DNA of 64,000 bases from Ancylobacter polymorphus (GTDB lineage: Bacteria > Pseudomonadota > Alphaproteobacteria > Rhizobiales > Xanthobacteraceae), in contig NZ_CP083239.1 of the NCBI RefSeq assembly GCF_022836935.1, forward strand, positions 2,618,001 through 2,682,000, in the 5' to 3' direction. Made by a program: the position numbers and the translations under genes. The notes beneath the pieces are model-generated. The model saw only the letters and a list, made by a program, of their open reading frames with translations. It did no database searches and was not told where the DNA came from. Positions 40,141 through 52,418 of this stretch are shown here, piece by piece (within the stretch, counting starts at the first letter, position 1; each line of letters opens with the position of its first letter).

Positions 40141-41348
40141 ACCCGCTTCTTGAAGGGCGCCCGGGCCTGGCCCGCGTGCTCGCCGCGCTCGATGGGGACG
40201 GCGAAGAGGCGCGCATCGTCGGCGGCGCGGTGCGCGACTGGCTGATCGGGCGCGGGCTCCGCTCGGATATCGACATCGCCACCACCGCTCTGCCGGACGA
40301 GATCACGCGCCGCGCCCACGCCGCCGGGCTGAAGCCGGTGCCGACCGGCATCGAGCACGGTACGATCACGGTCATCGCCGAGGGCGAGCCCTATGAAGTG
40401 ACCACGCTGCGCGAGGATGTGGAGACCGACGGGCGGCGGGCGCGCGTCGTCTTCGGCCGCAGCTGGGAGCATGACGCGCAGCGGCGCGACTTCAGCATGA
40501 ACGCGCTTTACCTCACCCGCACCGGCGCGGTGGTCGATCTCGTCGGCGGCGTGGAAGATGCCAGGGCCGGGCGCGTGCGCTTCATCGGCGATGCCGATAC
40601 CCGCATCCGCGAGGATTACTTACGCATCCTTCGGCTGTTCCGCTTCCACGCCTCGTTCGGCCGGGGACCGCTCGATGCGGACGCGCTGGCGGCGGCGGCG
40701 CGCCACCGCGCCGGGCTGGGCCAGCTTTCGCGCGAGCGGGTGCGGGCGGAGCTGATGAAGCTGCTTGTCGCCCCCCGCGCCGCCGAGACGCTGGCGCAGA
40801 TGCAGGCGGCCGGGCTGCTGGCGCCGGTGCTGGGGCGGGAGGGCGCCGTCGCCACCTTCGCCCGCCTCGCCGAGGTGGAGGCGGCGCTGGGGCTGCCGCC
40901 CGACGCCGTGCGGCGGCTGGGCGCGCTTGGCGTGCGCGAGCCCGCGGACGCGGAGGCGCTGCGCGAGGGGCTGCGGCTGTCCAACACCGAAGCCGCGCGG
41001 CTTACCGCGCTGGCCGGCCCGGCACCGACGCCAGGCATGTGCGAGAAGGGGCAGAAGGCGTTTTTGTACCGCATGGGCCGGCAGGCGTTTCAGGACCGGG
41101 CGCTGATTGCCTTCGCCCGCGCCGGGGCGCCGCTTGACGATGAAGGCTGGCGCGCCCTGGCCGCCATCGCCGCCGACTGGCCGCTACCCGTGTTTCCGCT
41201 CAAGGCGGCGGATTTCCTCACGCGCGGCATGGCCCCCGGCCCGGCGCTCGGCGCGGCGCTGAGGCGGGCGGAGGAGGCGTGGGTCGAGGCCGGCTTCCCC
41301 TCCGGCGAGGCGGCTCTGGCGGAGATCGTCACGGGGGCGGTGGGCTGA
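40137..41348 (+). CDS. cca: CCA-adding tRNA nucleotidyltransferase / poly(A) polymerase family
   Basis: 403 residues from the ATG at 40137. The class II nucleotidyltransferase head contains 'ARIVGGAVRDWLIGRGLRSDIDIATTA', whose G-G-x-V-R-D and D-x-D motifs bind the metal ions. Also present are 'EVTTLREDVETDGRRARVVFG', 'RRDFSMNALYLT' and 'IREDYLRILRLFRFHASFG', the ERxxxE-like neck. It adds or repairs the 3' CCA of tRNA using CTP and ATP; the sequence alone does not exclude poly(A) polymerase activity. Last gene of the operon, followed by a 636-base repeat-filled gap. Confidence 0.93.
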   Translation: MNPLLEGRPGLARVLAALDGDGEEARIVGGAVRDWLIGRGLRSDIDIATTALPDEITRRAHAAGLKPVPTGIEHGTITVIAEGEPYEVTTLREDVETDGRRARVVFGRSWEHDAQRRDFSMNALYLTRTGAVVDLVGGVEDARAGRVRFIGDADTRIREDYLRILRLFRFHASFGRGPLDADALAAAARHRAGLGQLSRERVRAELMKLLVAPRAAETLAQMQAAGLLAPVLGREGAVATFARLAEVEAALGLPPDAVRRLGALGVREPADAEALREGLRLSNTEAARLTALAGPAPTPGMCEKGQKAFLYRMGRQAFQDRALIAFARAGAPLDDEGWRALAAIAADWPLPVFPLKAADFLTRGMAPGPALGAALRRAEEAWVEAGFPSGEAALAEIVTGAVG

Positions 41349-41416: not shown

Positions 41417-41915
41417 CCCTCATGCCCGGGCTTGACCCGGGCACCCAGAGACGGCGCCAGTCGGGGCTGCTGTGAGTGGCGGAGCGGCGGGAAGGCTTGA
41501 CCCGGGCACCTAGAGACGGCCCCAGTCGGGGTTGAGGGGTGAGTGCGCGAGCGGCGGGAAGGCTGGGTCCCCGGGTCAAGCCCGGGGATGAGGGCGTGCG
41601 GCAGGGGCGGGTCGCGCTCCGCCTTCTCCGGAGCCGCCCATACTCCTCATGCCCGGGCTTGACCCGGGCACCCAGAGACATTCCGGCCGGGGCTGAGATG
41701 GGAGTGGTGAGCGGCGGGAAGGCTGGGTCCCCGGGTCAAGCCCGGGGATGAGGGCGTGCGGGCGGGGCGGGTCGCGCTCCGCCTTCTCCGGGCCGCCCAT
41801 ACTCCTCATGCCCGGGCCTGACCCGGGCACCCAGATACGGTTCTCCCGGGGCTGAGACGTGAGTGCGGGAGGGGCGGCAAGGCTGGGTCCCCGGGTCACC
41901 CCCGGGGATGAGGGA
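41417..41915. repeat. Inverted-half repeat array, reverse orientation (family C)
   Basis: This 500-base stretch has no gene. It holds three units, each starting at CCTCATGCCCGGG (41418, 41645, 41804) and closing with a CTGGGTCCCCGGG...CCCGGGGATGAGG half. Between halves is a variable core with 'GGCGGGAAGGCTGGG'. The first unit contains a partial internal duplication. Each half folds into a hairpin with a 5-base loop. Orientation is opposite to the arrays near 50.5 kb. Between units is a separate conserved spacer ('GGTCGCGCTCCGCCTTCTCCGG'). Confidence 0.85.
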
Positions 41916-49568: not shown

Positions 49569-50462
49569 ATGAGTGCCGAGACCGCCGCCGACATCGAGGC
49601 CCGCAAGGCCGCCGCCCGCGCCTGGTTCGAGGAATTGCGCGACCGCATCTGCGCCGCCTTCGAGGCGCTGGAGATTGAGGCGCCGGAAGCGCTCTATCCC
49701 GGCGCCCCGGGCCGCTTCGAGCGCACGCCATGGCAGCGGACCGACCATTCCGGCGCGCCGGGCGGTGGCGGCGTGATGTCGCTGATGCGCGGGCGGCTGT
49801 TCGAGAAGGTGGGCGTGCACTGTTCCACCGTGCATGGCGAATTCGCGCCCGAATTCCGCAAGCAGATCCCCGGCGCGGAGGAAGACCCGCGCTTCCACGC
49901 GACCGGCATCTCGCTCATCGCCCATATGGCGAACCCGCATGTGCCGGCCGTGCACATGAACACGCGCTTCGTCGTCACCACCAAGGCTTGGTTCGGCGGT
50001 GGGGCGGACCTGACCCCGGTGCTCGACGCCCGCCGCACCCAGGAAGACCCGGATTCGGTGGCTTTCCACGCCGCGATGCGCGGCGCCTGCGAGGGGCGCC
50101 CGCACATCGACTATGCCCGCTATAAAGAGTGGTGCGACGAGTATTTCTATCTGCCGCACCGCAAGGAAATGCGCGGCATTGGCGGCATTTTCTACGACTG
50201 GCTGGACTCGGGCGACCGGGACGCGGATTTCCACTTCACCAAGGCGGTGGGCCTCGCCTTTCTCGATGTCTATCCGCGCCTCGTGCGCGCGAACATGATG
50301 ACACCGTGGAACGAGGCCGCGCGCGAGGAACAGCTGATCCGCCGCGGGCGCTATGTCGAGTTCAACCTGCTCTATGACCGCGGCACGCTGTTCGGGCTGA
50401 AGACCGGCGGCAATGTGGATTCGATCCTCTCCTCCATGCCGCCGGTGGTGAAGTGGCCGTGA
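49569..50462 (+). CDS. hemF: Oxygen-dependent coproporphyrinogen III oxidase
   Basis: 297 residues, usual length. Hallmarks: '[28 protein letters not shown]', '[27 protein letters not shown]', '[28 protein letters not shown]', '[35 protein letters not shown]'. It decarboxylates coproporphyrinogen III to protoporphyrinogen IX with O2 in aerobic haem synthesis. Monocistronic, followed by the 143-bp-period repeat array. Confidence 0.97.
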
Positions 50463-50490: not shown

Positions 50491-50919
50491 CCCTCATCCC
50501 CGGGCGTGACCCGGGGACCCAGCCTTCCCGCATCCGCATGGCGTGTTCGAGGGCTTGCCACGCGGAGGCGTCTCTGGGTGCCCGGGTCAAGCCCGGGCAT
50601 GAGGGAAGGGTAGCATGGCCTCATTCCCACACGCCCTCATCCCCGGGCGTGACCCGGGGACCCAGCCTTCCCGTATCCGTATCGCTTAAGCGAGGGCTTG
50701 GCACGCGGAGGCGTCTCTGGGTGCCCGGGTCAAGCCCGGGCATGAGGGAAGGGGAGTTTGGCCTCATTCCCTCACGCCCTCATCCCCGGGCTTGACCCGG
50801 GGACCCAGCCTTCCCGCATCCGCATGGAGTGGTCGAGAGCCTGGCAAGCGGAGCCGTCTCTGGGTGCCCGGGTCACGCCCGGGCATGAGGGAAGGGGAGT
50901 TTGGCCTCATCCCCACACG
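50491..50919. repeat. Three intact 143-bp repeat units, forward orientation (family C)
   Basis: Units begin with CCCTCATCCCCGGGC at 50491, 50634 and 50777, exactly 143 bases apart. A fourth left half begins at 50920. Each has a CCCCGGG/CCCGGGG hairpin half, a core ('CCAGCCTTCCCGCATCCG...GGCGTCTCTGGG') and a GCCCGGG/CCCGGGC hairpin half, then a linker ('GGCCTCATTCC'). The regular spacing implies recent tandem duplication. Confidence 0.92.
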
Positions 50920-51316
50920 CCCTCATCCCCGGGCTTGACCCGGGGACCCAGCTATTTGGCCGTCACAGCAGGTCGTCGTAAAGGTCCCGCCAGTCGGGAT
51001 TGTCGCGCTCGATCAGGGCAAGCTTCCAGCGGCGCGGCCAGTGCTTGAGGTTCTTTTCGCGCTGGATCGCGGCCATGGCGGTGTCGTGCGGCTCGGCAAA
51101 CACAAGCGTCTTCACCCCATGCTGCTCGGTAAACCCGCCGAACAGGCCTGTCCGATGCTCGTGCATGCGCTTGGGAAGATCTCGGGTCACGCCGACATAG
51201 AGCGTCCCGTTACGTTGGCTGGCGAGGATATAGACCCAGTGCGGCTTCATGGCCTGTCACGCCTCGTCGGTCAGAGTGTGAAGTCTGGGTGCCCGGGTCA
51301 AGCCCGGGCATGAGGG
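50920..51316. mobile_element. Candidate GIY-YIG element: nuclease gene between inverted repeat halves
   Basis: The left 33 bases (50920-50952) and the right 34 bases (51283-51316) are near-perfect inverted copies of each other. They equal the left and right halves of the neighbouring 143-bp units. In place of the normal core lies the GIY-YIG gene. This has the layout of a small element with terminal inverted repeats, the tandem units being gene-less derivatives. No flanking target duplication could be called, because the flanks are themselves repeats. Confidence 0.45.
50963..51250 (-). CDS. GIY-YIG nuclease domain protein
   Basis: 95 residues. The GIY-YIG core is 'WVYILASQRNGTLYVGVTRDLPKRMHEHR' (VYI...LYVG pair, catalytic-type Arg after it). 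It is followed by 'DTAMAAIQREKNLKHWPRRWKLALIERDNPDWRDLY', where the Glu of REK is the usual metal ligand and DNP the conserved Asn. It is a stand-alone single-domain member of the UPF0213/YhbQ-like group. Its stop codon lies about 12 bases from the left inverted half and its start about 33 bases from the right, so it fits within the repeat unit. A role in spreading or maintaining the repeats is inference. Confidence 0.92.
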   Translation of the reverse strand: MKPHWVYILASQRNGTLYVGVTRDLPKRMHEHRTGLFGGFTEQHGVKTLVFAEPHDTAMAAIQREKNLKHWPRRWKLALIERDNPDWRDLYDDLL

Positions 51317-51344
51317 AAGGGGAGTAAGGCCCAATCCCCTCACG

Positions 51345-51457
51345 CCCTCATCCCCCGGCTTGACCCGGGGACCCAGCTTTCCGCATTCGCATGGCGTGTT
51401 CGAGGGCTTGGCACGCGGAGGCGTCTCTGGGGGCCCGGGTCAAGCCCGGGCATGAGG
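51345..51457. repeat. Repeat unit after the GIY-YIG gene (family C)
   Basis: One more unit in the same orientation, from CCCTCATCCCCCGGC to GCCCGGGCATGAGG, with a few substitutions, including one in the left hairpin. It stops 17 bases before the end of the MaoC gene. Confidence 0.85.
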
Positions 51458-51474
51458 CGGAGCGCAGGCCCCCG

Positions 51475-51951
51475 TCACCCCTCCAGCCGTTCCACAAACA
51501 GGCTGTTGGTGAACTCCATCACCGGCGTGCCAGCGGGGTCGGTGGCGGTTTCGCGGGTGAAGACGAGGCCCCATTCCGGGCGGCTCGCGCTCGGCTTCTT
51601 CGCCGTCACCTCGCTGAGAAAGGTCAGCGTGTCGCCGGGGCGCACCGGGCGCAGCCAGCGCAGATCCTTGAAACCGGGGGAGGGACCAAGGCGCGGCACC
51701 GGCCTTCCCTCGCGCCGCAGCAGCTCATGCTCGCGGGCCCAGGCCTGCGCCCGCAGCCGCGCGGAAATCGCCACCACATGCCAGCCCGACGCCACCAGAC
51801 CGCCGAAATGGGTGCGCGCACCCGCCGCCGCGTCGAGATGGAAGGGCTGTGGATCGAAGGCGCGGGCGAAGGCGACGATCTCGTCTTCGGTGAAGCTGTG
51901 CGCGCCGAGCCGGGTGCGGGCGCCGATCTCGATATCCTCAAAGAACCGCAT
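51475..51951 (-). CDS. MaoC-like hot-dog fold dehydratase
   Basis: 158 residues from the ATG at 51949-51951. 'TFTEDEIVAFARAFDPQPFHLD'-type hydratase motif is present ('FTEDEIVAFARAFDPQPFHLD', catalytic Asp/His region). 'GGLVASGWHV' and 'LRPVRPGDTLTFLSEVTAKKPSASRPEWG' follow. Such proteins hydrate enoyl-CoA, often as pairs. It lies 8 bases after a second MaoC gene on the same strand, so a heteromeric enzyme is possible. Substrate unknown. Confidence 0.87.
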   Translation of the reverse strand: MRFFEDIEIGARTRLGAHSFTEDEIVAFARAFDPQPFHLDAAAGARTHFGGLVASGWHVVAISARLRAQAWAREHELLRREGRPVPRLGPSPGFKDLRWLRPVRPGDTLTFLSEVTAKKPSASRPEWGLVFTRETATDPAGTPVMEFTNSLFVERLEG

Positions 51952-51959
51952 CACACCCC

Positions 51960-52418
51960 TCAGGCCGGCCGGAAGCCGGGATTGCGCCGGCCGAACAGGA
52001 TGGTGCCGACAAGGTCCGCCATCACCTCGCCGGCGGCGTCGAGCAGTTCGAAGCGAAACTTCACCAGGCCCATTTCCGGCCGGCTTTTCGAGGAGCGGGT
52101 TTCCAGCACATGCCGGCGCAGGCTCAGTACCGTGCCGGGATGCACCGGCTTGAGGAAGCGCACCTCCTCCAGTCCCGGCGAGCCGAGGCAGTCGCTGCGG
52201 ATGAGGAAGCCGTCGGCGGCGAGGCGCATGAAGATGCAGCACAGATGCCAGCCGGAAGCCGAGAGCCCGCCGAGCCGCGTCGCTTCGGCGGCGGAATCGT
52301 CGAGATGGATCGGTTGCGGGTCATAGTCGCGGGCGAAGGCGAGGATTTCCTCGCGCCCGACCACATAGCGCCCGCAGGTCGCCACATGCCCCTCCTGAAA
52401 ATCCTCCCAGAACAGCAT
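51960..52418 (-). CDS. MaoC-like hot-dog fold dehydratase (partner)
   Basis: 152 residues. Same architecture as its neighbour: 'VGREEILAFARDYDPQPIHLDDSAA' hydratase motif, 'GGLSASGWHLCCIFMRLAADGFL', 'RFLKPVHPGTVLSLRRHVLETRSSKSRPEMGLVKFRFELL'. The two share about the same length and pattern and probably arose by duplication. They likely act on acyl-CoA esters. Confidence 0.88.
   Translation of the reverse strand: MLFWEDFQEGHVATCGRYVVGREEILAFARDYDPQPIHLDDSAAEATRLGGLSASGWHLCCIFMRLAADGFLIRSDCLGSPGLEEVRFLKPVHPGTVLSLRRHVLETRSSKSRPEMGLVKFRFELLDAAGEVMADLVGTILFGRRNPGFRPA

Follow-up and report, generated by a model that had tools for sequence, protein, structure and literature searches.

The GIY-YIG nuclease gene of Ancylobacter polymorphus described here lies inside a REP unit, enclosed by the same two inverted halves that build the ordinary REP dimers beside it. 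The partnership of nuclease gene and REPs is well supported, in this genome and around related genes elsewhere. In our view the GIY-YIG protein is probably the dedicated enzyme partner of the CGTC-type REPs, the gene and its two halves together forming one small element.

The nuclease gene and its REP unit

The window, a stretch of 64,000 nt from A. polymorphus contig NZ_CP083239.1, contains on its minus strand a 95-aa ORF matching PF01541 (50963..51250). A REP half precedes it on the plus strand (50920..50951), with a CCTC tag on the outside, 9-nt stem arms with one mismatch, a 5-nt loop and a CCA tail on the side of the gene. An inverted half follows on the minus strand (51285..51316). The halves are 94% complementary and 333 nt apart, and the ORF (51250..50963) is wholly contained between them. 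The original prediction had placed inverted halves around the gene and equated them with those of the neighbouring units; its coordinates were correct, and the halves measure 32 nt.

Four ordinary units, all read on the plus strand, adjoin the nuclease unit. Three of them (50491..50605, 50634..50748 and 50777..50891) are laid out alike as tag-outward dimers, with a left half, a 51-bp core and a right half, and the fourth (51345..51458), which lies beyond the nuclease unit, has a 50-bp core. The cores of 51, 51, 51 and 50 nt lie between identical left and right half types, which are told apart by a paired stem change (ATCCCC-type on the left, ATGCCC-type on the right). The array repeats with a period of 142-143 bp, made up of a 114-115 bp unit and a 28-bp spacer, in line with the 143 bp predicted. 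The prediction that the halves enclose a core also held, and the core is slightly longer than the "about 45" bases given for it. The nuclease unit and the four core units thus have terminal inverted repeats in common, as do the members of an IS/MITE pair, and may represent putative autonomous and non-autonomous copies. Both halves of the nuclease unit are predicted to form hairpins, with folding energies of -10.6 and -11.2 kcal/mol (z of -4.1 and -4.9, respectively), and ordinary unit 1 as a whole is predicted to form one long hairpin (z -7.55).

Sixteen REP halves were found in the window, all with at most four mismatches in a search that allowed up to eight, and the identical search of three base-shuffled windows returned none. 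At up to three mismatches the genome holds 110 copies (55 + 55) of the core of the half, and no copies of the same pattern read backwards. Among the 100 of these 110 copies that were listed, 32 adjacent pairs within 160 bp are tag-outward and 10 are tag-inward; exactly one tag-outward adjacent pair is spaced 160-1500 bp apart, and it encloses the nuclease gene.

These repeats correspond to the published CGTC REPs, which have a CGTC, TGTC or CCTC tag, an 8-9 bp stem, a 4-5 nt loop and a CCA tail and occur mostly as HH dimers (Di Nocera et al. 2013, PMC3733652). The window halves share every one of these features, with a CCTC tag, 9-nt arms carrying one mismatch (8 pairs when folded), a 5-nt loop and CCA, and the dimers are mainly tag-outward (HH) and present in many genome copies. 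The GTAG tag is absent from the window REPs. No match to the Y1 transposase profile (PF01797) was found in this genome; the same profile matches five of 14 control genomes.

The nuclease scores 51.5 bits against PF01541 (cut-off 22.6), and a 99% identical protein is present in A. polymorphus. We tentatively assign it to COG2827. In an alignment of 37 sequences from two subfamilies, the window protein included, Y7, Y18, G20, R28, H32, E65, K69, K76 and W87 are invariant. Among these are the two Tyr, the Arg and the Glu of stand-alone GIY-YIG nucleases (Y7, Y18, R28 and E65), the presumed catalytic residues of the superfamily. An AlphaFold2 model of the protein (pLDDT 91.2) has UPF0213 structures (1zg2, 1ywl), Slx1, which cuts branched DNA, I-TevI and UvrC among its nearest solved folds. 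In four of five comparisons with genus orthologues dN/dS is 0.056-0.074, the fifth being saturated, which indicates that purifying selection has kept the gene working. A comparison with the anti-phage families of PADLOC-DB gave no match at E 0.1. The uvrC-like GIY-YIG gene of the same genome has a flank inverted-repeat score of 12, comparable to background.

Palindromes around related nuclease genes

Eighty loci encoding relatives of the nuclease were sampled from named genomes, of which 75 were usable and five too short. The REP detector required a (G/C)TC tag, a stem-loop of any stem sequence and a CCA-like tail, and yielded 378 REPs in 1.24 Mb versus 45 after shuffling. When REPs of other orientation were disregarded, 40 of the 75 loci had outward-tagged REPs within 200 bp of the gene on either side; two of the others were mixed on both sides, one was tag-inward, 16 had REPs on one side and 16 had none. 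With the count limited to the closest REP on either side, 36 loci were outward, two inward, five mixed, 16 one-sided and 16 empty. A stricter detector (289 REPs versus 7 after shuffling) left 35 of the 75 loci with outward REPs on both sides within 300 bp. Of the REPs lying no more than 70 bp from a nuclease gene, 83 are tag-outward and 13 tag-inward, and the element has a median length of 396 bp between its outer edges.

Controls were drawn from the same loci. Outward REPs on both sides were found for 11 of 16,681 windows of matched length (0.066%), and for two of 905 other ORFs, or one of 340 when only ORFs up to 200 aa are counted; the difference between 40/75 nuclease loci and 2/905 ORFs gives a Fisher probability of 1e-47. 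An independent test, in which inverted arms were sought by local alignment, found a score of at least 26 at 48 of 78 loci versus 47 of 5,240 control windows. One control window (L074) scored as a complete 400-bp inverted repeat, which may reflect mirroring in the assembly. Altogether 55 of the 78 relatives pass the palindrome test, the inverted-repeat test or both, and 23 pass neither. A search of 40 relatives added 29 further loci, 21 of which reach the score of 26, a count that stands without a matched control; three of these loci repeat L033-L035 and one belongs to the distant subfamily.

A separate, even draw across the class covered 142 genomes, of which 57, the window's own included, had a match, so that the gene is patchily distributed. 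Among the loci of the 29 best-matching of the 56 other genomes, 11 had outward REPs on both sides within 200 bp, four had inward REPs on both sides, six had REPs on one side and eight had none, and 14 of these 29 reach the inverted-arm score of 26. Any REP beside the gene was seen at 21 of the 29 class-draw loci versus 124 of the 905 control ORFs. The check suggested with the original prediction, on the frequency of inverted halves around relatives of the gene, gave a strongly positive answer in the sampled loci (40/75 versus 2/905 ORFs) and again in the class draw (11/29).

The association recurs in many families; the plan of the palindromes is constant and the stems differ. In Sphingomonas, Sinorhizobium/Rhizobium, Magnetospirillum, Bradyrhizobium and Ancylobacter the arms have different stems and the same kind of tag and tail, the tags of the relatives' arms being mostly CGTC or TGTC as read by a detector that accepts (G/C)TC tags only. 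For the 38 loci having both arms and distal REPs, the similarity between an arm and the distal REPs of its own locus is 0.316, compared with 0.164 for arms of other loci (sd 0.027 over 200 shuffles, the best reaching 0.248). Similarity of the arms tracks similarity of the proteins weakly, with a Mantel coefficient of 0.165 (permutation sd 0.058; best of 500 permutations 0.193).

Elsewhere the arrangement varies. One genome (G163; loci L206 and L231-L240) has 11 GIY-YIG paralogues, of which five have REPs on both sides within 220 bp and two on one side, with differing stems; the nearest REPs are tag-inward in four of the five copies with REPs on both sides. A Neisseria gonorrhoeae homologue (positions 1290-1814 of the L138 record), without a listed feature in the collection, is set among repeats of the dRS3 plan; a nuclease may reside with dRS3 repeats as well. 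The Azospirillum and Neisseria genes are each placed between a pair of dimers, not within a single one.

Within the genus, a distant GIY-YIG subfamily (B) is 33-34% identical to the window protein (A). Ten of the 25 genus genomes have the B gene, in one case as a partial copy. At 10 of the 11 loci examined (12 found; L029, L170-L179), copies of a different palindrome, CATCCTGAGG...CCTCGAAGGATG, lie on its two sides in inverted orientation. Across the 25 genomes, the A-type repeat has a median of 153.5 copies with the A gene versus 4 without it (p = 0.020), and the B-type repeat 63 copies with the B gene versus 2 without it (p = 0.0008), both with relatedness ignored. The cross tests, with relatedness likewise ignored, gave p = 0.24 for the A repeat and the B gene and a weak p = 0.045 for the B repeat and the A gene. 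Because the genomes are related, all of these p-values are optimistic. There are exceptions in both directions: A-type REPs are abundant without the A gene in two of the seven genus members lacking it (G009, 340 copies; G023, 113 copies), the A gene occurs with few A-type REPs in G004 (1 copy) and G016 (3 copies), and no B gene was found in G020, whose B-type copies number 382. A third, REP-like repeat with a long loop (TCATCCCGGCCG..AGAGCCGGGATC) occurs in 21 of the 25 genomes and flanks some nuclease genes (L022, L154); G004 and G016 have just 2 and 7 copies of it.

Sites with and without the nuclease

In Azospirillum lipoferum 4B, sufB and sufC are separated by a 617-bp space containing a dimer, the nuclease gene and a second dimer. 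The corresponding space was scanned in A. ramasamyi (91 bp), A. oryzae (87 bp), Azospirillum sp. B510 (129 bp) and A. thermophilum (55 bp), and neither REP nor gene was found in it. On grounds of parsimony, the dimer-nuclease-dimer block was probably gained in A. lipoferum. The alignment of the intergenic space is too diverged for a target-site duplication to be read.

In Ancylobacter the array adjoins a plus-strand ORF (49569..50462) that we take, from its sequence, to be hemF-like, and this gene, present in all 25 genus genomes, served as the marker for comparing filled and empty sites. On the hemF side there is no REP in G021, a dimer belonging, by its sequence, to another repeat type in G010, a core unit with a single half in G023, the nuclease unit with a single half in G013, and an array with the nuclease in G015. 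In several relatives a convergent gene, presumably cca-like, lies beyond hemF (in G010 and G021, for example, the 3′ end of hemF adjoins it). A rearrangement has altered this order in G008 and the window, where putative MaoC-like genes instead of cca follow the nuclease-bearing array at hemF. In the window these are two adjacent, similar minus-strand ORFs after the array (51475-52418), 43% identical to each other, the second of which has a match in all 25 genus genomes. Filled and empty sites were seen both in Azospirillum, where the block is present in one species and absent from four relatives, and at hemF within the genus.

A second REP array on the plus strand of the window (41417..41914) has six halves in alternating orientation and lies downstream of the putative cca-like gene, which ends here near 41348. 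The two arrays (41417-41914 and 50491-51458) bracket about 9 kb, and from the gene order this segment looks as if it had been inverted between them.

These sites bear on an alternative in which the nuclease has no action on REPs, its small gene being either useful in its own right or passed on horizontally. Host recombination would insert, move or lose this gene by way of the REPs, used as homology arms or landing pads. Such a reading would account for the sites of the gene differing even inside the genus (beside hemF/cca, mutS-like and polA-like genes, all tentatively named from sequence), for the REPs at the rearrangement breakpoint beside the gene, and for the persistence of REPs in G009 and G023 without the A gene. 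Against it, just two of 905 other ORFs are flanked likewise, so REPs are not general gene carriers; two nuclease subfamilies pair with two different palindromes; and the four scanned Azospirillum relatives have no REP at the site for recombination to use. We regard this account as unlikely.

A possible role for the nuclease

Under the reading we prefer, that of a dedicated enzyme partner, the nuclease would serve CGTC REPs in the way presumed for RAYT tyrosine transposases and GTAG REPs. We infer that the protein binds and cuts REPs and that the cutting drives their spread. It would recognise the REP hairpin or cruciform, in which the tag and CCA tail are fixed and the stem is variable, and would cut one strand at or next to the hairpin; host repair or replication would then copy or re-insert the hairpin-bounded segment at new intergenic sites. 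GIY-YIG enzymes are DNA hydrolases and are not known to join strands, so the host would have to supply the re-insertion step. Segments with a short core would be non-autonomous units, and the gene-bearing segment the autonomous copy.

The original prediction, that the protein mobilises or maintains the repeats, gains partial support from the association, within the genus, of repeat number with presence of the gene (uncorrected for relatedness) and from the Azospirillum block that is present in one species and absent from four relatives. It is weakened by the 23 of 78 relatives that pass neither flank test and by the two of seven gene-less genus members that are rich in repeats. Its analogy with the layout of REPs and their RAYT fits, the repeats being of the published CGTC type that is said to lack a transposase (PMC3733652).

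The protein could instead be a host DNA-repair enzyme that opens REP cruciforms or hairpins and is kept nearby because the REPs are its substrate or regulate its expression. In Caulobacter, COG2827 genes, one of them preceded or accompanied by an SOS box, were interpreted as encoding UvrC-like repair enzymes (PMC1839093, in its passages on these genes), and the branched-DNA nuclease Slx1 is among the closest solved folds. A repair enzyme, though, acts in trans and has no need of a position within its substrate. The gene is patchily distributed, being found in 57 of 142 class-draw genomes, and seven of the 11 copies in G163 have a REP no more than 220 bp away, the stems differing. This explanation appears distinctly unlikely to us. 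Coincidence, by which short genes would fall by chance between REPs that are common at gene ends (most are intergenic, often near gene 3′ ends; PMC3733652), is highly improbable and is refuted for this sample by the matched controls, in which one of 340 ORFs up to 200 aa and 11 of 16,681 windows were flanked.

The proposed REP-nuclease element resembles REPtrons (RAYT/TnpA-REP with GTAG REPs or REPINs) in its single small REP-flanked enzyme gene and its many REP copies throughout the genome, and differs from them in that the enzyme is a GIY-YIG nuclease instead of an HUH/Y1 tyrosine transposase and that the tag is not GTAG. Free-standing GIY-YIG homing endonucleases and Penelope elements are known cases of GIY-YIG enzymes serving selfish DNA. 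A homing endonuclease cuts alleles that lack its gene, which is then copied into them. Neither group is known to have palindromic inverted ends, and Penelope also has a reverse transcriptase; the nuclease element here does have palindromic inverted ends. Both groups appear in PMC1564403. Stand-alone GIY-YIG proteins of the COG2827/UPF0213 kind share the fold and catalytic residues of the window protein, and are described as UvrC-like repair domains (PMC1839093, in the passages cited above) or as hypothetical, without a link to repeats. In the open-licence literature, preprints excluded, we found no paper linking GIY-YIG nucleases with REPs or palindromes; PMC9465073, in the portion bearing on the subject, has GIY-YIG and REP-related genes as separate table rows.

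CGTC REPs occur mostly in alphaproteobacteria, in all orders, and also in other phyla, and they include Neisseria dRS3 (= CGTC-1) and Rickettsia conorii RPE-6/RPE-4 (PMC3733652). According to the relevant passages of that survey they "apparently lack a dedicated transposase", the few associations with transposase genes being judged fortuitous. What makes and moves CGTC REPs was left open there. The survey considered transposase genes and, in those passages, reported no enzyme partner, whereas here a GIY-YIG gene lies inside a dimer. The nuclease offers a named, small, expressible candidate enzyme whose presumed substrate is adjacent at many loci; with candidate and substrate side by side, the question is directly testable.

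More tentatively, and as a proposal that may well prove too broad, REP-nuclease elements could be an unrecognised class of mobile DNA, in which a nuclease and its own hairpin family co-diversify, each subfamily (two seen) reading its own tag and stem, and which, needing no DDE, tyrosine, serine or HUH transposase, could disseminate the palindromic repeats of alphaproteobacteria as well as Neisseria dRS3. If true, a very large repeat family would be kept alive by a hydrolytic nuclease and not by a transposase.
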